This document shows positions 13,038 to 52,469 of a stretch of 64,000 bases of DNA, piece after piece (the stretch's first letter is position 1; the number at the start of each line of letters is the position of its first letter). The notes beneath the pieces were generated by a model, which saw only the letters and a program-made list of their open reading frames with translations, was not told the DNA's origin and did no database searches. A program made the translations under genes and the position numbers. Source of the DNA: an uncultured Desulfatitalea sp. (GTDB taxonomy: Bacteria; Desulfobacterota; Desulfobacteria; Desulfobacterales; Desulfosarcinaceae); assembly GCA_937868765.1 (NCBI GenBank), contig CALMNL010000004.1:942749-1006748 (forward strand), in the 5' to 3' direction.

Positions 13038-14615
13038 ATGATTTTCAAGAACAAGTTCGTACAACTGGCCATGGCGATTTTACTGGGAGTCATCGTTTTA
13101 CTGCTGCCCCGGCCCGAGGGTACCCGTTTTAAAATCAAAGGCGATCCGCAGCAGCTTATCCTGCAACAGGAGGGCACGCGCTTTGAGCTGATCTCCCAGG
13201 ATGACAAAAAACAGGTGTATGAGGTCCAATTGCGGGACAAAACCCAAAACGCCGGCGCGGCCCAGGCCCTGGCGGCGGCCGCGACCGATCTGAAGCTGGT
13301 TGAAGCGGAAATCGTCTATGTGGACGGTCTTTCGCCCAAGGCCAAGCGGCTGCTGGCCATGCTCGCGACCCTGATCGTCCTCTTCATCGTCGAACCCATT
13401 CCCCTGGAGATCACGGCCATCTGCATCGGCGTGCTGCTGGTGGCCCTGGGGATTTCGGACGTCAAGGGGGCCTGGGCGCCCTACATGCACCCGGTGGTGG
13501 TCTTCATCATGGTGTGCCTGGTCTTTGCCATCGCCCTCGAAAAAGTGGGCATCACCAAGCGACTGGGCTATTTTATCGTGCGCCTGGCCGGCACCAGCGT
13601 CACCAAGTTCACCTTTATCATCTGCTGCGGCCTGGGTATTGCCTCGTCGGTGATGCATGACGCGGCAGCCTGCGCCATCGGCATCGCCACCATGCTGCCC
13701 CTGATGCGCGCCGTGGGCATCGATCCCCACAGCAATACGGCCAAGTTCATGATGCTGTCGCTGCCCTTTGCCTGCTCGGCGGGCGGCATGGGCACCCTGA
13801 TCGGCGGCGGGCGTTGCATGGCGGCGGCAGCCTTTTTAAAGGAGTTCACGGGCATTGAACTCTCCTTCCTGGACTGGATGATCTACGCCATGCCGGCGGC
13901 CATCATCACGGTCTTTGTGGCGGTGGGGATGAACTATGTGATCTTCCGGCCGGACAACACCCTGAAGCTGCCCAAGTTCGAGGAGAAGGCCGAGCCCATG
14001 ACGCCCAAGGCCAAGCTGGCCCTGGTCGTGATCCTCCTCACCTTCGCCTCCTGGTTGCTCAAGGGGTTTCACGGTTTGGACTATTCGGTCACCGGCATGC
14101 TGGGCGTGGGCGCGCTGGTGCTGTTTAAAATCATCGCGTGGGACGACATCCACGAGAACCTGGAGTGGGGCACGGCGCTCTTTATCTTCGGCGGTGGCAT
14201 CTCCCTGGGCCTGGCCATGGACTACTCGGGCGCGGCGGGCTATTTCGCCCACCTCTTCTTCCCCCTGATCAACGGCAAGGGCTGGCTGGTTCTTTTCGCC
14301 GGGGTAGCCATCTTCGGCGCCCTGGCCACCAATGTCATGGCCAACGTGGCGGCCGCGGCCCTGGTGCTGCCCATCGCCATCCCCCTGGCCCAGATGGAAG
14401 GCGTCAACCCCACCATCCTGGCCCTGTGCCTCGGCATGGCCACCTCCTTTGCCTTCCTGTTGGTGATCGGTTGTCCGCCCAATGCCATCGCCTACAGTTA
14501 TCGCTACTTCAAATCCGCGGACCTGACCAAGGCCGGAATGATCGTCATGCCCGTGCTTTTGACGGCCCTGATCTTCATCGCCAAGGTGTGGTGGGGGGTT
14601 TTGGGCTTGGTGTAG
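13038..14615 (+). CDS. SLC13/DASS-family anion carrier with N-terminal insertion
   Basis: 525 residues with about 11-12 hydrophobic segments. It fits the divalent anion:sodium symporter family, which imports dicarboxylates, sulfate or similar anions; EPIPLEITAICIGVLL and later asparagine/glycine-rich re-entrant segments support this. Unusually, the family motif that normally reads P.P.GLSP..., ending the first helix, is split: PRPEG at 24-28 and GLSPKAKRLLA at 97-107 are separated by ~68 polar residues, predicted to be extracytoplasmic. The ATG follows GAGGAGACC. It lies between receiver genes, so uptake and signalling appear coupled. The substrate is unknown. Confidence 0.85.
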   Translation: MIFKNKFVQLAMAILLGVIVLLLPRPEGTRFKIKGDPQQLILQQEGTRFELISQDDKKQVYEVQLRDKTQNAGAAQALAAAATDLKLVEAEIVYVDGLSPKAKRLLAMLATLIVLFIVEPIPLEITAICIGVLLVALGISDVKGAWAPYMHPVVVFIMVCLVFAIALEKVGITKRLGYFIVRLAGTSVTKFTFIICCGLGIASSVMHDAAACAIGIATMLPLMRAVGIDPHSNTAKFMMLSLPFACSAGGMGTLIGGGRCMAAAAFLKEFTGIELSFLDWMIYAMPAAIITVFVAVGMNYVIFRPDNTLKLPKFEEKAEPMTPKAKLALVVILLTFASWLLKGFHGLDYSVTGMLGVGALVLFKIIAWDDIHENLEWGTALFIFGGGISLGLAMDYSGAAGYFAHLFFPLINGKGWLVLFAGVAIFGALATNVMANVAAAALVLPIAIPLAQMEGVNPTILALCLGMATSFAFLLVIGCPPNAIAYSYRYFKSADLTKAGMIVMPVLLTALIFIAKVWWGVLGLV

Positions 14616-40558: not shown

Positions 40559-41419
40559 ATGAAACGGAATTCCCAAATCGAGCCCCACACCAGCAAAAAA
40601 GGTAACCCGAACTTCATACTGCGCTACCAGCACTACTTTTACATGTTTTTGAAAAACTTCGACAATCTGTTCCGGAAGGCTTGTGGCACGCTTGTTGAAG
40701 CGATGGAGGGCAAATACATGCAAAACCATAGTGACGGTCAAACCTTTTATAGAATGCAGTGGATTCAATACATAGAACAGCATCTGGCCCAGCGGGTCGT
40801 CCGCAATGGTCTCATCGCCTACCTGGCCGTGGCCATGCTGGCCATTCCATCGGCCCTGGGCAGCCTTCAACATAGCCTGCCGTCCATTGAAATCGCGGCC
40901 CTGGAGATGGCACCCGATCTGTCTGCATCCGCGCTCATGGACGACCTGGTGGCGTCACCCGGGCAAGAGGGCCAGACCGTGGCCGCATCGAAACCGCAGC
41001 TGCCGTATCACGAGCATATCATGCAGGCCGCCGAGGCCTATGATGTAGATCCCACCCTCATCCGGGCCATCATCCTGGCCGAATCCAGCTACAACCCCCA
41101 GGCCGTAAGCAAACGCGGCGCCCAGGGGTTGATGCAACTCATGCCGGAAACGGCGCGCTCCCTGGGTCTCTTCGACAGTTTCGACCCCGGCCGCAACATC
41201 GATGCCGGCGTGCGCTACTTCCGCTCGCTGATGGACCGCTTCGACGGCAACGTGAAGCTCGCCCTGGCCGCTTACAACGCCGGCAGCCGCTATGTGCGCC
41301 AGTACGGCGGCGTGCCCCCCTTCGAGGCCACCAAACGCTATATCCAGAAAGTACTGCACTACCAGAAGAAGTTCCAAACCCAAATGGCCGTTAAGGAAAC
41401 CAGCGAACCAACCGTCTGA
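40559..41419 (+). CDS. Membrane-anchored lytic transglycosylase (SLT)
   Basis: 286 residues. A cytoplasmic N-terminal ~75 residues precede one hydrophobic helix (~80-100). The C-terminal ~120 residues form an SLT domain with the catalytic Glu in IILAESSYNPQAVS, GAQGLMQLMP, and AYNAGSRYVRQYGG. It cleaves peptidoglycan glycan strands in the periplasm. The long N-terminus before the anchor is unusual; an in-frame ATG at codon 49 or 54 could be the true start, giving a normal signal anchor. A strong terminator follows. Confidence 0.9.
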   Translation: MKRNSQIEPHTSKKGNPNFILRYQHYFYMFLKNFDNLFRKACGTLVEAMEGKYMQNHSDGQTFYRMQWIQYIEQHLAQRVVRNGLIAYLAVAMLAIPSALGSLQHSLPSIEIAALEMAPDLSASALMDDLVASPGQEGQTVAASKPQLPYHEHIMQAAEAYDVDPTLIRAIILAESSYNPQAVSKRGAQGLMQLMPETARSLGLFDSFDPGRNIDAGVRYFRSLMDRFDGNVKLALAAYNAGSRYVRQYGGVPPFEATKRYIQKVLHYQKKFQTQMAVKETSEPTV

Positions 41420-41442
41420 CAGGAAGCACCACGGTTCCCCAT

Positions 41443-41476
41443 GACGTCCCGCCCCAGGGCGGGACGTCGCTTTTTT
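41443..41476 (+). terminator. Rho-independent terminator
   Basis: A 12-bp perfect stem GACGTCCCGCCC/GGGCGGGACGTC with a two-base loop is followed by GCTTTTTTC. It ends the transglycosylase transcript 24 nt after its stop. The rest of 41477-41692 shows no gene. Confidence 0.92.
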
Positions 41477-41692
41477 CAAGGGGGGCACGAAGGCCCCTGC
41501 CATCCGTGGAGGCCTTCTCCCGGGTCGCTTTCCACGGTCGGCCGGCGTGATAATTTTCTTGACCGGACAGCATCTTCCGAATAAGTTGGGGCCTTTTTAA
41601 CAGAACCAGAACCACGCTGAACCGACCCCCAAAGCCGGCCCGTCTGGAACCGTGCGTTCACATTGGCGCGGCTGCATGGAAAGGAAACCGAA

Positions 41693-43540
41693 ATGAAGTT
41701 GTTGGGAACCATCTTGCTCCTGTTGGGAATCCCTGCCATGGCGCTGGCCTCGGAAGCGGGCGCCGCACCGGCCGATATGACGAGCACCGCCATCGGCTAT
41801 CTGGCCCTGATCATCTTCGTGGCCGCCTACTGCCTGGTGCCCCTGGAAAACAAGATCCACCTGCGCAAAAGCAAGCCGGTGCTGGCGGCCGCAGGCATCA
41901 TCTGGGTGCTCATCGGCATCGCCTACATGCAGATGGGCGACACCCACACGGCCCACAACGCCATCAAATACAACCTGACGGAGTATGCTGAGCTGTTCCT
42001 CTTTCTGCTGGTGGCCATGACCTATATCAACTCCATGGAAGAACGCAATGTCTTCGAAGCGTTGCGCGCCTGGCTGGTGAGCCGGGGCTTCACCCTGCGG
42101 GCGGTCTTCTGGATCACCGGCGTGCTGGCCTTCTTCATTTCACCGGTGGCCGACAACCTGACCACCGCCCTGCTCATGGGCGCGGTGGTGATGGCCGTGG
42201 CCGGCGACAACATCAAATTCGTGGCCATGGCCTGCATCAATATTGTCATCGCGGCCAATGCCGGCGGTGCCTATTCGCCCTTCGGCGACATCACCACCCT
42301 GATGGTGTGGCAAAAGGGCAAGCTCTCGTTCATCGAGTTCTTCGACCTGTTCATCCCATCGGCCGTCAACTGGCTGGTGCCGGCCGTCTGCATGAGCCTG
42401 GCCATCGGCAAGGCCACGCCCAAGAAGGTGGATGAAAAAGTGAAGATGAAATACGGCGCCAAGGTGGTCATCGCCCTCTTCCTGCTGACCATCGTCACCG
42501 CGGTCTCGTTTCACAACTTCCTGCACCTGCCGCCGGCCGCGGGCATGATGCTGGGTCTGGGCTACCTGGGTTTCTACGCCTTCCACATCAAACGACACGA
42601 GGGCCGCAGCGAGGCGTATGACGGCATCCTGGGCACCGTGGGCGATCTGTCCTACCAGCCGCTGCGGCGACTCATTGAACGCAAGCGCAGCTTCGACAAG
42701 TTCATCGATCAGATCCCCGAACCCACTTTCGCCATCGATAAAAACCATGTGATCACCCACTGGAACAAGGCCTGCGAAGAGCTCACCGGCATCCCGGCCG
42801 AAAAGATGGTCGGCACCAGCAACCAGTGGAAGCCGTTCTACCCCAGCAAGCGACCCTCCATGGCCGACCTGATCATCGACTACAAGCCCGAAGAGGTGAT
42901 CGCGGAACACTATAAACAGGGCTACCGCAAGAATCCCTATGTGGAAGATGCCTACGACTCCAGCGGCTTTTTCCCCAACGTAGGCCCCCACGGCAAATGG
43001 GTCACCTTCACGGCCCTGCCTTTGAAGGATCGGGAAGGCCGGGTCATCGGCGCCGTGGAAGTACTCCAGGATTTCACCAATCAACGTGCTCAAGTGGCCC
43101 AGTTCGACATCATGAAGCGCATCGCCCATGCCGAGTGGGACACCCTGCTCTTTTTCTACGGCGTAATCCTCTGCGTGGGCGGCCTGGCCCAGCTGGGCTA
43201 CCTGGCCGCCATCTCCCACTTCATGTATACGGGCATGGGGCCCACCTGGGCCAACACCATGGTGGGTATCCTGTCGGCCATCGTGGACAACATCCCGGTG
43301 ATGTTCGCCGTGCTCACCATGTCGCCGGAGATGTCCGACGGCCAGTGGCTGCTGGTGACCCTCACCGCCGGCGTGGGCGGCAGTCTGCTCTCCATCGGTT
43401 CGGCGGCCGGCGTCGGCCTGATGGGCACGGCCCGGGGCAAATACACCTTCGGCGCCCATCTCAAGTGGACCCCGGTGATCCTGGCCGGCTATATTGCCAG
43501 CATTCTGGTCCACCTCTGGATCAACGCCAAATTGATGTAG
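41693..43540 (+). CDS. NhaD-type Na+/H+ antiporter with internal PAS domain
   Basis: 615 residues from the ATG at 41693 (AAGGA upstream). The first ~300 residues are antiporter-like: a signal-like first helix, membrane helices, and SPVADNLTTALLMGAVV with Asp154-Asn155 typical of NhaD. Residues ~330-466 form a PAS domain (FDKFIDQIPEPTFAIDKNHV, ITHWNKACEELTGIP, VIGAVEVLQDFT). The transporter then resumes at AHAEWDTLLFFYGVILCVGGL with a second conserved AIVDNIP (Asp532) and ends normally. The PAS interrupts a cytoplasmic loop, suggesting direct sensory control of transport. The ligand is unknown. Confidence 0.88.
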   Translation: MKLLGTILLLLGIPAMALASEAGAAPADMTSTAIGYLALIIFVAAYCLVPLENKIHLRKSKPVLAAAGIIWVLIGIAYMQMGDTHTAHNAIKYNLTEYAELFLFLLVAMTYINSMEERNVFEALRAWLVSRGFTLRAVFWITGVLAFFISPVADNLTTALLMGAVVMAVAGDNIKFVAMACINIVIAANAGGAYSPFGDITTLMVWQKGKLSFIEFFDLFIPSAVNWLVPAVCMSLAIGKATPKKVDEKVKMKYGAKVVIALFLLTIVTAVSFHNFLHLPPAAGMMLGLGYLGFYAFHIKRHEGRSEAYDGILGTVGDLSYQPLRRLIERKRSFDKFIDQIPEPTFAIDKNHVITHWNKACEELTGIPAEKMVGTSNQWKPFYPSKRPSMADLIIDYKPEEVIAEHYKQGYRKNPYVEDAYDSSGFFPNVGPHGKWVTFTALPLKDREGRVIGAVEVLQDFTNQRAQVAQFDIMKRIAHAEWDTLLFFYGVILCVGGLAQLGYLAAISHFMYTGMGPTWANTMVGILSAIVDNIPVMFAVLTMSPEMSDGQWLLVTLTAGVGGSLLSIGSAAGVGLMGTARGKYTFGAHLKWTPVILAGYIASILVHLWINAKLM

Positions 43541-43541
43541 T

Positions 43542-43823
43542 ATGGAGATACTGGCGCTCAAAGGCTATGCCCGGGGCTTTCGCGGGTGTCTGGTGGACGA
43601 GAAAGAGTACCTCTTCTTCCAGTACACCCGCAACGGACGGCTGCGGCACCTGAAAGCGTACCCCCGCGGCGAGTTCGAGAGCCACGAGCATTTCGCGGCC
43701 CAGATGATGAAGTTCATGTCGCCGGGCGCGTTTTTAAGACCGCCGATACCCGTGACCGAGCTGAGCCTCGCGGAGCTGGATCGCGTGAGCGCCATGCTTA
43801 GAAAGAAAATCGAGAGTGAATGA
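43542..43823 (+). CDS. Uncharacterised 93-residue protein
   Basis: 93 residues, soluble, no signal peptide. Distinctive stretches are GYARGFRGCLVDEKEYLFFQY and the acidic-basic C-terminus LAELDRVSAMLRKKIESE. It starts one base after the antiporter stop and is followed at once by the YkgJ-type gene, so it is in the same operon. I do not recognise a family. Confidence 0.7.
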   Translation: MEILALKGYARGFRGCLVDEKEYLFFQYTRNGRLRHLKAYPRGEFESHEHFAAQMMKFMSPGAFLRPPIPVTELSLAELDRVSAMLRKKIESE

Positions 43824-43824
43824 A

Positions 43825-44595
43825 ATGAACACCGACCACCCGGAAAACAACGCCCATATCAACCCCACCCGGCTGGGCTACCAGAGCCGGTTCCAGTTCA
43901 AATGCCATCCCGGCGTCTCCTGCTTCACCCAGTGCTGCCGGGGCATCCAGATCATCCTGACCCCCTACGACATCATCCGGCTCAAACGGCGCCTTGCGCT
44001 GCCGTCGGACGAGTTTCTGGCCATCTACACCGAGCCCCACCTGCTGGAAAAGACCGACCTGCCCATGGTGACCCTCAAGCACCTGGACGACGGCCAGGAG
44101 TCGTGCGCCTTCGTGCGCGATAAAGGCTGCATCGTCTACGAGGACCGACCCACGGCCTGCCGGTACTACCCCCTGGGCGTGGGCACCCTGCAGCACAAGG
44201 AGGGGGCCGACGACGACGGCTTCTTCTTTTTCATCAACGAACCGCACTGCAAGGGTTTCGACGAGAGCCAGGAATGGACCGTGGCCGATTGGCGCCAGGA
44301 CCAGGGGGTGGACGAACGCGACGCGGTCAACGCCGAATGGACCGACCTGGTGGTGCGCAAACGCTCGTTCCCGGTGAACATCAAGCTCACCGACCAGGCC
44401 AAGCAGATGTTCTTCATGGTGAGCTACAACCTCGACCAGTTCCGCCGTTTCGTCTTCGAGAGCACCTTCCTGCAGCGCATGCCCGTGGACGACGCCACCC
44501 GGGAGCAGCTCAAGACCGACGACGTGGCCCTGCTCAAGTTCGGCGTGAACTGGCTCAAGAACCTGCTGTTCAAGCAAAAAGACCCCCTCCCGTAA
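43825..44595 (+). CDS. YkgJ-family cysteine-cluster protein
   Basis: 256 residues from the ATG at 43825, which starts just after the previous stop; a GTG at 43816 overlapping that stop is possible. The cysteine pattern FKCHPGVSCFTQCCRG, then CAFVRDKGCIVYEDRPTACRYYPLG, is that of the YkgJ/zinc- or iron-chelating Fe-S-like family. These proteins are often linked to metal or redox functions, but few are characterised. It is in the operon of the PAS-antiporter. Confidence 0.88.
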   Translation: MNTDHPENNAHINPTRLGYQSRFQFKCHPGVSCFTQCCRGIQIILTPYDIIRLKRRLALPSDEFLAIYTEPHLLEKTDLPMVTLKHLDDGQESCAFVRDKGCIVYEDRPTACRYYPLGVGTLQHKEGADDDGFFFFINEPHCKGFDESQEWTVADWRQDQGVDERDAVNAEWTDLVVRKRSFPVNIKLTDQAKQMFFMVSYNLDQFRRFVFESTFLQRMPVDDATREQLKTDDVALLKFGVNWLKNLLFKQKDPLP

Positions 44596-44735
44596 AAACA
44601 TCCGCCGGTCGCCCCGAATGGCTCCGAAGATACGGGGCGACCGTAGAATTCCCGTGCCTGTTTATGGAACTCCCTTTCAGAACCTTTGGCCCAAAAGGCA
44701 TTTTGAGATAGTTCTATAAGAAAGGAATCTCGAAG

Positions 44736-46472
44736 TTGGCCTCCCAACCCCCCTCCCACCCGCGCAACCCCAATCTGCTTCAGGTCCTGGTGGTGCCCGT
44801 TGTGTTCCTCCTGGTGGCAGGGCTGATCGCCGCCGCCGGCTATTTGCGTTTCGAGGAGCTGAAAAAGAGCATCCGGAACGACAGCTATGCCAATCTGAGC
44901 GCCGTGGCCGATTACAAGGCCGCCCAGATCACCCAGTGGATGGGCCAGCGGCGCAAGGAGGCTGAAGCCATCGGCCTCAACCGCTTTCTGGCAAAAGAAC
45001 TGCGCAACGGCGTCACCCGGGACCTGCGGGCCTACCTGGACAAGCTCACCCTGCAAGGCGGCTACCGGACGACGGCGATCCTGGACACCCGGGGCGAGGT
45101 CCTCTTCTCCATGGGCGAGGAGGTAAGCTCCCTGGACCCGGAAACCGAAAACCTCGCCGCGGAGGCCGTCAAATGCGGCTGCGCCCAGGTCTCCGACCTG
45201 CGGATCGACGCGGGCGCCGGGTTGGACGGCCAACCCCCAAAGATCCACCTGGACCTGCTGACGCCGCTCAAATACGTGGCGTCCGGCAAGGAACGGACCG
45301 CGGGGGCGATGCTGCTGCGCATCGATCCGCGTGCGGACTTCTACCCTCTGGTGCAAAGCTGGCCCACGGCCAGCCCGACGGCCGAAACGCTGCTGGTGCG
45401 TGCCGAAGGCCAGGATGTACTCTTTCTAAATCCCCTGCGCCACCAGCGCAATGTGGCGTTCACCCTGCGCATGCCGCTGGAAAGCGCCGATCTGCCGGCC
45501 GCCATGGTGGCCCGGGGATGGCGCTGGGTGGTCGAGGGGGTCGACTACCGGGGGGTGCCGGTGGTGGCCACACTCCGGCCGATTCCCGGCACCCCCTGGT
45601 CCATGGTGGTCAAGATAGATGCCGCCGAGCTGTTCGCGCCCCTGGCCAGGAGCGGCCGGACCATCCTGAGCGGGTCGCTGCTCCTGGTCCTGCTCACCGC
45701 CGCGGCCTTTTTCATGTTCTGGCTGCAGCAGCGGTCGGCGGAGCACCAGAAGCAGGAGACCCTAGCGGGCCGGGCCAACCTGGGCCAGAAACTGGACGCC
45801 TTCATCCAATCCATTTCCCGGGAGCTGCGCACCCCCCTGCGCGACGTGGAAAAGTACAGCCGGCAACTGCAGGAAGCGTTGCCGGAAGGGTTTAAGGCCC
45901 AAAGTCGCAACTCCCTGGAGCGCATCCGCGCCGGCCTCCAGGCCATGGATCGGCGCATCGACGATCTGCACGCTTTTTCCCGACTGAGCAGCCGCGACCT
46001 GGCACCGGAGCGCATCGATATGAACGGCCTCTTCCGTGCGGTTTTCGATGAGCTGCGCATGGCGGAACCCGGTCGGGAGGTGCGCCTGGAACTCGATGCG
46101 GTGCCATCGGCACAAGCCGACCCGATCCTGATCCGGGAAGTGGTGCGCCACCTGCTGAGCAACGCCTTCAAATTCACCCGCGGCCGCAAACCGGCCAAAA
46201 TCGAAGTTGGCGCCCTGGCGCCGTTCATGGGCCGCGATGGATACCGGACCTTTTTCGTGAAAGACAACGGCGTCGGATTCGACATGCAGCAGGCCGACAA
46301 GCTGTTCGCCATTTTCCAGCGGCTGCACGATCCCAAGAGCTTCGAAGGCAGCGGCATGGGCCTGGTGGCGGTCAAACAGATCGTCGAACGCCACGGCGGC
46401 CAGGTGTGGGCGCAGGCCTCCCCGGACGAGGGGGCGCTCTTTTTCTTCTCGCTGCCGTCCCAGGAGCGGTGA
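44736..46472 (+). CDS. Membrane sensor kinase homologue lacking the phospho-accepting His
   Basis: 578 residues from a TTG at 44736 with AAAGGA nine bases upstream; there is no ATG until residue 69. Helix ~14-36, periplasmic sensor ~40-305, helix ~311-330, a HisKA-like helix pair, and HATPase (LLSNAFKFT, DNGVGFDM, GSGMGLVAVKQIVERHGG). At the H box the sequence is SISRELRTPL, with Arg362 (CGG at 45819-45821) where His is expected. The ATPase looks intact. It may bind ATP and regulate a partner such as the paralogous kinase 291 nt downstream rather than phosphorylate itself. Confidence 0.85.
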   Translation: MASQPPSHPRNPNLLQVLVVPVVFLLVAGLIAAAGYLRFEELKKSIRNDSYANLSAVADYKAAQITQWMGQRRKEAEAIGLNRFLAKELRNGVTRDLRAYLDKLTLQGGYRTTAILDTRGEVLFSMGEEVSSLDPETENLAAEAVKCGCAQVSDLRIDAGAGLDGQPPKIHLDLLTPLKYVASGKERTAGAMLLRIDPRADFYPLVQSWPTASPTAETLLVRAEGQDVLFLNPLRHQRNVAFTLRMPLESADLPAAMVARGWRWVVEGVDYRGVPVVATLRPIPGTPWSMVVKIDAAELFAPLARSGRTILSGSLLLVLLTAAAFFMFWLQQRSAEHQKQETLAGRANLGQKLDAFIQSISRELRTPLRDVEKYSRQLQEALPEGFKAQSRNSLERIRAGLQAMDRRIDDLHAFSRLSSRDLAPERIDMNGLFRAVFDELRMAEPGREVRLELDAVPSAQADPILIREVVRHLLSNAFKFTRGRKPAKIEVGALAPFMGRDGYRTFFVKDNGVGFDMQQADKLFAIFQRLHDPKSFEGSGMGLVAVKQIVERHGGQVWAQASPDEGALFFFSLPSQER

Positions 46473-50567: not shown

Positions 50568-51281
50568 TCACCCCAGCCGCAGCCGGCGCAGGTCGGCGAT
50601 GTGCCGGGCCGGATAGACACCGGTGGGGCACACCCGGCTGCAGGCCAGGGCCCGCTCGCACATGGGCTCGCCGTGGGGGACGGCCGCCCGGGCCAGCAGT
50701 GCGGGACGCTGTTCGGCCGTTGTCTTTTGCATCTGGTTGTGCAGGGCGGCCAGGGCCGCCGGTCCCATGAACGGGGGGTGGGCCTGCACGGCCGGGCAGA
50801 CCGAAACGCAGGCGCCGCACTCGATGCAGTTTTCCAGCCGCAGCGCGCCGCCGCTGTCCGCCGCACCCGCCAGGGGCTCGGCGGTGCGCAGTACTTCCCA
50901 TTCCGCCTCGATCTCCCGATAGAAGCCGGTCATGTCCACGGCCAGGTCGGCGATGCGCGCGAAGCCGCGCAACGGCGCCAGGGTCACGGTGGTGGTCGCA
51001 AGGGCCCATACCCGGGTGAGGCAGGCCAGGCGCTCGGTGCCGTTGATGATGCAGGCGCAGGTGCCGCAGGCACTGTGGTGGCACGAATGGCGGTAGACCA
51101 GGGTCGGGTCCTGGACCAGGCGGATCTGCTCCAGGCAGTCCAATACCGTCATGTTCTCATTTACTGCCAGGACAAAGGTCTCGAAGCGGGATGGATCGAT
51201 CCGCCCCGGCTTGAAGCGCGAGATCTTGAATCGAATGGTTCGCATCGGTTCCGGTTCGCCCTGGCCGGTGGGCACAGCCAT
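50568..51281 (-). CDS. SdhB/FrdB-like iron-sulfur protein
   Basis: 237 residues from the ATG at 51281, which has AAAGGAG upstream; an ATG at 51302 is less well placed. The N-terminal plant-type [2Fe-2S] domain has Cys67, 72, 75 and 87 (HHSACGTCAC). The C-terminal domain has C-x2-C-x2-C-x3-CP (152, 155, 158, 162) and a second set at 208, 214 and 218. This is the SdhB/FrdB electron-transfer layout. It follows a GlpA-like dehydrogenase by 21 nt and most likely takes its electrons rather than those of succinate; no sdhA or sdhC is present. Confidence 0.87.
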   Translation of the reverse strand: MAVPTGQGEPEPMRTIRFKISRFKPGRIDPSRFETFVLAVNENMTVLDCLEQIRLVQDPTLVYRHSCHHSACGTCACIINGTERLACLTRVWALATTTVTLAPLRGFARIADLAVDMTGFYREIEAEWEVLRTAEPLAGAADSGGALRLENCIECGACVSVCPAVQAHPPFMGPAALAALHNQMQKTTAEQRPALLARAAVPHGEPMCERALACSRVCPTGVYPARHIADLRRLRLG

Positions 51282-51302
51282 GTCGCCGCTCCTTTCTTCC
51301 AT

Positions 51303-52469
51303 CTACGGCACCGCCTGCCGCCAATAGCCTCGGTAGGGCCGCAACACCGTCTCCCGGGTGCGGCCGGCGATGTTGCGGCCGGTCTTGCGGCAGATCAGGT
51401 CGGCGCTCTTTTCGGCCATGGCCCGCATGGTGGTGGCTTTGCCGCCGATGAGGGTCACCAGCCCCTCCACCCGGTCGCGCACCGCGTGGTCGAAGCAGTC
51501 GAAAGTTCGGCTGATGCTGTAGGGGTCCAGGGCCGGGTCGGTGCGCAGTAACGGCCGGCTGGCACTCCACACGGCGTGGGGCTGCAGACTGCGGACGGCC
51601 GGCAGCAGTTGCGCGCCAAGCGTCAATAGCCGCCGGATATGTGCTGCCGGGGCCGTCACCCGGTCCGGGTCATCGGCCAGCCAGGCGGTGGTGCCCAGGA
51701 TGCTCAGGCGGCGCTGGGGCACGATGATGTCGCCCTCGCCGGCCGGGTGCAGCCGGTTGACCACCATGTGGGTCAGACGGCCGGCCACCGACACCATGAC
51801 CCCCGGCGCCGGCTGGATGGGCACCTGCACGGCCGCCATCTCCGCGATGCGGCCGGCCCAGGGGCCGGCGGCGTTGACCACCAGGTCAGCGCCGATGGTT
51901 TCGCTGCGCCCGGTGCGGTGATCGCAGACCTGCACGCCGGTGACGGCGCCGCCCCGGCGTTCGAGTGCGGTCACCTCGCAATAGGGCCGGATCTCGGCGC
52001 CGTTGGCCCGGGCCGTGGCAAAGAACGGCAGGGCCAGGCGAAAGGCGTCCATGCTGCCGTCGGGCACCCGCACCGCCGCCTTGGCTTCCGGGTTCAGGCC
52101 CGGCACCCGCGCCAGGGCCTCGTCCACGGAGATCTCCCGGGCCGGAATGCCGGCGGCGGCGCACCCTTCCAGGAAGGGTTCCCGGAACGACAGATCGGTC
52201 TCGTCCAGGGCCACGAAGAGCCCGTCGTTGGGTTCGATGGCCTGGGGTGCGATGCGGCGCAGGATCTGGTTCTCTTCCCAGCACTCCCGGGCGGCGGCCG
52301 GGTCGTGGAGCACATAACGGGCACCGCTGTGCAGCAACCCATGATGCCGTCCGGTGGTGCCCGAGAGCAGCTCGCCCTTTTCCACCAGCGTCACCCGGAA
52401 CCCGCGCAGGGTCAGGTCATGGGCCAGGGCCCCGCCCACGCCGCCGCCGATGATGAGGACATGTTCCAT
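51303..52469 (-). CDS. FAD-dependent glycerol-3-phosphate dehydrogenase (short GlpA type)
   Basis: 388 residues. N-terminal FAD-binding LIIGGGVGGALAHDL and the DAO signature GRHHGLLHSGARYVLHDPAAA resemble the GlpA encoded at 62287-63867. It lacks the C-terminal [2Fe-2S] domain of that protein and ends soon after IGGKATTMRAMAEKSADL. Likely role: oxidation of glycerol-3-phosphate or a related 2-hydroxy acid, with electrons to the SdhB-like protein encoded next. The substrate cannot be fixed from sequence. Confidence 0.85.
   Translation of the reverse strand: MEHVLIIGGGVGGALAHDLTLRGFRVTLVEKGELLSGTTGRHHGLLHSGARYVLHDPAAARECWEENQILRRIAPQAIEPNDGLFVALDETDLSFREPFLEGCAAAGIPAREISVDEALARVPGLNPEAKAAVRVPDGSMDAFRLALPFFATARANGAEIRPYCEVTALERRGGAVTGVQVCDHRTGRSETIGADLVVNAAGPWAGRIAEMAAVQVPIQPAPGVMVSVAGRLTHMVVNRLHPAGEGDIIVPQRRLSILGTTAWLADDPDRVTAPAAHIRRLLTLGAQLLPAVRSLQPHAVWSASRPLLRTDPALDPYSISRTFDCFDHAVRDRVEGLVTLIGGKATTMRAMAEKSADLICRKTGRNIAGRTRETVLRPYRGYWRQAVP

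Follow-up and report, generated by a model that had tools for sequence, protein, structure and literature searches.

Antiporters of the NhaD family (TC 2.A.62; curated model NF038006), described from Vibrio and Halomonas, are the closest known counterparts of the protein considered here, a predicted Na+/H+ antiporter with a PAS domain in the middle of its chain. It is called PAS-NhaD below, and is encoded in a 64,000 nt stretch (the window) of the genome of an uncultured Desulfatitalea sp. For Halomonas NhaD1, the Na+ site has been listed as S162, D166, N167, G204, S401, D405, N406, G436, and G442, and a cytoplasmic pH sensor composed of E64, E65, R454, and R464 has been proposed (PMC9408914, section 5.4); this sensor, within the transporter itself, is the only one discussed in that section. 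In one review, regulation of secondary ion transporters after their synthesis is described as less well understood than their transcription. PAS-NhaD is like the rest of the family in its sequence (54-70% identity to 41 PAS-less relatives, alignment A1), in its nine Na+-site residues, and in its IT-type fold, but differs in having a PAS domain in the loop between helices TM8 and TM9, a proline at position 50, and, in most members, an asparagine at position 53.

Other systems resemble it in part. Two CitMHS transporters with TrkA_C domains, encoded in the same genome (loci L002 and L003), are also IT-superfamily proteins with soluble domains in mid-chain, but these come in two stretches (L002) or four (L003), apparently inserted between the transporter halves rather than between TM8 and TM9. 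The window has a second CitMHS-type transporter (13374-14435, + strand; open frame of 553 aa). In EAG/hERG-type K+ channels a PAS domain likewise forms part of an ion-transport protein, but those channels are eukaryotic and have it N-terminally, not as an insert like that of this bacterial antiporter. PAS-PAS-LuxR regulators and histidine kinases (L191, L192, L073-L084) have related PAS domains, but with DNA binding or kinase activity as the output, judging by domain content. In MFS transporters, PAS, CBS, cyclic-nucleotide-binding, or UspA domains are joined to the transporter in cis, as here, but in another transporter family and, in the account of these fusions in PMC10710835, usually at the C-terminus. 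Soluble domains inserted in IT-fold transporters and PAS domains fused to MFS transporters are thus already known; a PAS domain within NhaD appears to be new, no description having been found in searches of the open-licence PMC literature. It is well supported as an architecture; its role as a regulator is one that we infer. The gene and the parts of its product are as follows:

41693..43540, + strand: PAS-NhaD (P0001), NhaD-type Na+/H+ antiporter with an inserted PAS domain, 615 aa.
41780..42610, + strand: N-terminal transporter part, residues 30-306, with TM1-TM8, HPin (S150, D154, N155), and G192; placed by the NhaD_1 stretch (57-306), helices, and Na+-site residues.
41840..41851, + strand: P50-L51-E52-N53, cytoplasmic end of TM1; N53 is at the position of Glu65 in Halomonas NhaD1.
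42611..42691, + strand: N-terminal linker, residues 307-333; the model shows a helix at 318-329 and disorder over 308-317 (pLDDT <50).
42692..43087, + strand: PAS domain, residues 334-465, with THWN (355-358), W379, F382, D392, Y407, and DFT (460-462).
43088..43105, + strand: C-terminal linker, residues 466-471, joining PAS to the TM9 helix (473-501).
43100..43537, + strand: C-terminal transporter part, residues 470-615, with TM9, HPout (S528, D532, N533), G563, G569, and TM10-TM11.

The original prediction of a PAS domain within an NhaD-type antiporter, in one continuous frame, is borne out. Positions 41693-43540 (+) form a single open frame of 615 codons plus a stop; NF038006 (NhaD_1) matches the product with 591.9 bits (cut-off 80), in two stretches flanking the PAS domain, and the middle part (residues 334-465) passes Pfam PAS models. 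The older, full-length model TIGR00775 gives 418.2 bits against a cut-off of 577.1, a whole-protein score that the insert may depress. In the AlphaFold2 model the transporter has a complete IT-superfamily fold (INDY/ArsB-like), which agrees with that of solved members across the entire membrane part, and the PAS fold expected at about residues 330-466 is complete and modeled with confidence. Neither a pair of separate transporters nor an end-to-end fusion can account for the protein, as both parts together make up one complete IT fold in the model. Solved structures matched by sequence (E <=1; 13 distinct sequences) were phytochromes and sensor proteins, on the PAS region, with no transporter among them.

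By eye, there is a ribosome-binding-like stretch 5′ of the antiporter ATG, and a terminator-like inverted repeat followed by T's 3′ of the upstream lytic transglycosylase gene; the antiporter is therefore probably the first gene of its transcription unit. No RNA element was found in the region 41200-44800 at E <=0.5.

The insertion lies between the predicted helices TM8 and TM9, bounded by the end of TM8 (K-x-x-E-G) and by F-D-x-M ahead of TM9. For comparison, both transporter parts were required in one open frame (excluding L021, L045, L063, L067, and L069), 20 partial, multiple-copy or PAS-only loci were omitted, and two identical rows were removed, leaving 124 aligned proteins, 43 with PAS and 81 without. 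The stretch equivalent to residues 300-472 is 173-175 residues long in the former and 13-42 in the latter. Since the 43 were chosen as open frames, their intactness is no independent evidence, but as distinct proteins sharing an insert of constant length at the same point, they rule out a frameshift or assembly join. The YDxxLG and FDIM segments bordering the insert are also recognizable in the PAS-less L016 and L017, which adjoin the PAS-bearing clade in trees, so the PAS domain would have entered a variable loop that was already there. The loop charge distribution places this loop, with its PAS domain, on the cytoplasmic side, in agreement with the earlier assignment.

By sequence, the transporter itself is intact. 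All nine Na+-site residues have identical counterparts (S150, D154, N155, G192, S528, D532, N533, G563, and G569), each invariant in 43/43 PAS-bearing proteins, and on sequence and model PAS-NhaD is classed as an NhaD-family Na+/H+ antiporter. Of the proposed pH sensor, E52 and R581 are retained, with N53 in place of E65 and K591 in place of R464. Lysine at the latter position is the rule in PAS-less proteins as well (64/75). At the E65 position, PAS-bearing proteins have Asn in 38 cases and Glu in five, all five in one subclade, while the 75 PAS-less proteins outside the clade have Glu (71) or Asp (4); the six PAS-less rows of the alignment that nest within the clade all have Asn. Position 50, which is Pro in 43/43 PAS-bearing proteins, is occupied in the 75 by M, I, T, or V; the nested PAS-less copies examined have both P50 and N53 (13/13). 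The change from Glu65 to Asn suggests, without proving, a shifted pH response.

A scan of public genomes yielded 77 loci, of which eight (L009-L015 and L068, including Desulfofustis glycolicus DSM 9705) had the transporter parts and PAS together. Whole-genome surveys, in which the best few candidates per genome were scored, extended this. Of the 389 genomes surveyed in the window's order, 50 contain an NhaD match (E <=1e-60) and 36 an unbroken PAS-bearing copy, at 42 places (41 distinct) under eight family codes; the class sample returned the same 42 places. The order of genome G714 has matches (E <=1e-100) in 92 of 257 genomes but PAS-bearing ones in just two, and the transporter core of one of these proteins is the same in sequence as that of the D. 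glycolicus PAS-NhaD. In a phylum sample, thin at 395 genomes, there were matches in 17, with PAS only in the window's own genome.

Three records call for separate mention. L013 is a PAS-NhaD in a record titled as Spirochaetes, although the protein groups with Desulfobacterota in trees; either horizontal transfer or mis-binning would explain it. A PAS-NhaD-like copy at G386:C251:15751-17511 has an internal stop codon, and was not used in the trees. On the 10,126-base contig G014:C105 (L011) the gene is present twice in mirror image, probably an assembly artefact, and was counted once.

On sequence, the PAS-bearing forms share ancestry. A maximum-likelihood tree of 79 of the 124 proteins, with PAS columns removed, needs two changes of state, and none of 200 bootstrap trees (0%) needs a single one: the PAS-less copies L184-L189 nest within the PAS-bearing clade. 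Constraining the PAS-bearing proteins to one group costs 19.3 log units (AU p 0.019, in a test run after a first tree had been seen). An enlarged tree (80 rows, with seven further PAS-less proteins from the order, three PAS-less and two PAS-bearing from the second order, and the PAS-bearing L150, L156, L164, and L177 left out) still needs two, although its strongly supported branches are by themselves compatible with a history without loss. A single gain in sulfate-reducing bacteria followed by one loss is likely but not proven. Five genomes (G314, G341, G345, G377, and G380) hold both forms, their PAS-less copies all falling in the nested clade; in the one pair compared (L174 and L189, from G345), the transporter cores are 78% identical.

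What the PAS domain might recognize can be approached through its conserved residues and relatives. Nine of its positions are invariant, including W357, N358, W379, and F382. H352 is kept in 33/43 PAS-NhaD proteins, and is invariant, together with H356, W357, and N358, across the 16 PAS domains of alignment A2; the invariance of the last three is partly built in, the 12 relatives L073-L084 having been found with a pattern that included HWNKACEE, while H352 lies outside that pattern. These 12, at 31-49% identity to the PAS of PAS-NhaD, comprise histidine kinases (L074, L075, L078, L082-L084), LuxR-type regulators (L073, L077), and short PAS proteins (L076, L079-L081). The two closest in the window's genome, with domain names read from sequence, are a PAS-PAS-LuxR-type protein (L191, 44%) and a solute-binding/PAS/kinase protein (L192, 34%). 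A subclade of nine PAS-NhaD proteins, of which seven adjoin Mrp genes, has neither H352 nor D-x-T/S, a motif typical of PAS output; its cue may be a different one.

The explanation towards which we lean, from sequence and model, is that the PAS domain is a cis-acting cytoplasmic sensor that tunes antiport; direct gating of transport by a redox, ligand, or pH cue, as first suggested, is plausible. The domain would bind a cytoplasmic cue, either a small molecule or, by way of a cofactor, a redox state; the resulting change would pass through the C-terminal linker into TM9, and from there by the arm helix to the HPout hairpin, which carries one half of the ion site (D532 and N533), shifting the exchange rate or the pH set point of the antiporter. 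PAS might in this way assume some of the control that pH alone exerts in other NhaDs, a suggestion made because one of the proposed pH-sensor glutamates is replaced in nearly all members.

Several observations weigh against such a sensor. The PAS domain changes faster than the transporter core (mean identity 0.43 vs 0.78), and the C-terminal linker, through which a signal would have to pass, is the least conserved part of all (0.24); model confidence is also low at the link between PAS and TM9 (pLDDT 69 for 461-470, 55 for 471-480). The D-x-T/S motif is only partly kept, with T or S at 462 in 24/43 and D460 in 40/43. The structural matches of the PAS domain are a mixture of heme, flavin, small-molecule, and other PAS domains, hERG and ELK entries among them, so the cue cannot be named. 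N53 is not confined to PAS-bearing forms, being found in 13 nested PAS-less copies while five PAS-bearing proteins have Glu, and as a single event on one branch it provides no statistical association with PAS. Finally, one lineage has probably lost PAS and kept the transporter, which makes the domain dispensable for folding or basic transport.

An assembly or dimerization module on the cytoplasmic side, without sensing, is unlikely but the best of the alternatives. Many PAS domains dimerize, IT-fold transporters are mostly dimers, several titles among the structural matches name dimers, and the near-constant length of the inserted stretch would fit such a module. However, the invariant W357, N358, W379, and F382 apparently belong to the PAS interior rather than to a surface patch, and PAS-less NhaDs do without the domain.

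Two further genes follow the antiporter directly:

43542..43823, + strand: 93-aa protein with no Pfam or NCBIfam match; beside PAS-NhaD only in the genus.
43816..44595, + strand: YkgJ-type CxxCxxCC protein (PF03692), start GTG 43816 or ATG 43825; beside PAS-NhaD only in the genus.

The ATG of the 93-aa gene is 2 bases past the last base of the antiporter, to which it is apparently translationally coupled; the YkgJ-type gene begins either at a GTG overlapping the 93-aa gene or one base beyond that gene, at an ATG. Both genes follow PAS-NhaD in the four other same-genus loci of the first-copy type (L009, L010, L150, L151); downstream of L068, a second copy in one genome, there are only short matches (45 and 49 residues). 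The pair was not found in the other 37 of 42 loci, some with little downstream DNA (146 bases at L159, 543 at L169); L155 and L156 have a YkgJ-like match (34-35%) about 3.6 kb away on the opposite strand. The original prediction of one response locus also took in two sensor kinases. Within the genus, the 93-aa and YkgJ-type genes do accompany the antiporter, but the kinases are not supported as part of a conserved system: L010 and L150 lack both, with SdhB-like and GlpA-like genes directly after YkgJ and no kinase between, L151 has one close match (63% over 640 aa), and L009 only a distant one (27%). In the window (50568-52469, - strand), a GlpA-like FAD protein (388 aa) also adjoins an SdhB-like iron-sulfur protein, an unusual-looking pair that is kept in L010 and L150; the GlpA-like protein does not reach the curated cut-off of either of the two GlpA models that match it best.

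No neighbor is conserved in all of the 42 other PAS-bearing loci compared, a pattern that fits action in cis better than a fixed partner. A lytic transglycosylase gene lies 5′ in ten, and MnhE/F/G-type Mrp antiporter genes, recognized by similarity clustering and checked with Pfam in L176, adjoin seven (L169, L175-L178, L180, L183). At L176:4974-11804, PAS-NhaD lies beside MnhE, MrpF, MnhG, MnhB, and a Proton_antipo_M protein, and receiver-type proteins are encoded to either side; such a cluster is possibly a two-antiporter sodium/pH operon.

The PAS domain might instead be an output or docking module, the antiporter acting as a transport-coupled sensor whose transport state is relayed by PAS to histidine kinases or response regulators. 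This seems quite improbable, although the relatives of the domain do act in kinase and regulator proteins. The genes 5′ of PAS-NhaD at L176 encode a kinase, two proteins of receiver type (judged by sequence), and another protein; a response regulator gene and the Mrp genes lie 3′ on the same strand. A receiver/PAS/kinase-type gene cluster (single-linkage, labeled from an example) occurs in the flanks of 16/42 loci, but it mixes strands and distances. Across the family, PAS-NhaD has no conserved kinase or regulator partner, and even within the genus the two kinases are absent beside L010 and L150. That the domain is a selectively neutral passenger, tolerated and kept by descent, is very hard to credit: its faster divergence, the lineage without it, and the stop codon in the G386 copy would fit, but the order survey found 42 unbroken places under eight family codes against one broken, with nine invariant PAS positions and a constant insert length.

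The cis-acting sensor can be extended to a larger, distinctly tentative proposal: a one-protein sensor-gated antiporter, invented once in sulfate reducers, in which PAS took the place of some of the transporter's own pH sensing (Glu65 becoming Asn at the cytoplasmic end of TM1) and couples the extrusion of sodium to a cue from metabolism or redox state. The later PAS-less duplicates would then be an ungated form, which would be why five of the genomes examined contain both. With matched PAS-bearing and PAS-less antiporters in single genomes, what a single inserted sensor does to ion exchange is directly measurable. Such an effect would mean that a signaling domain can work from a position in mid-fold in a transporter, and that sulfate reducers link their sodium and pH balance to a cue in the cytoplasm.
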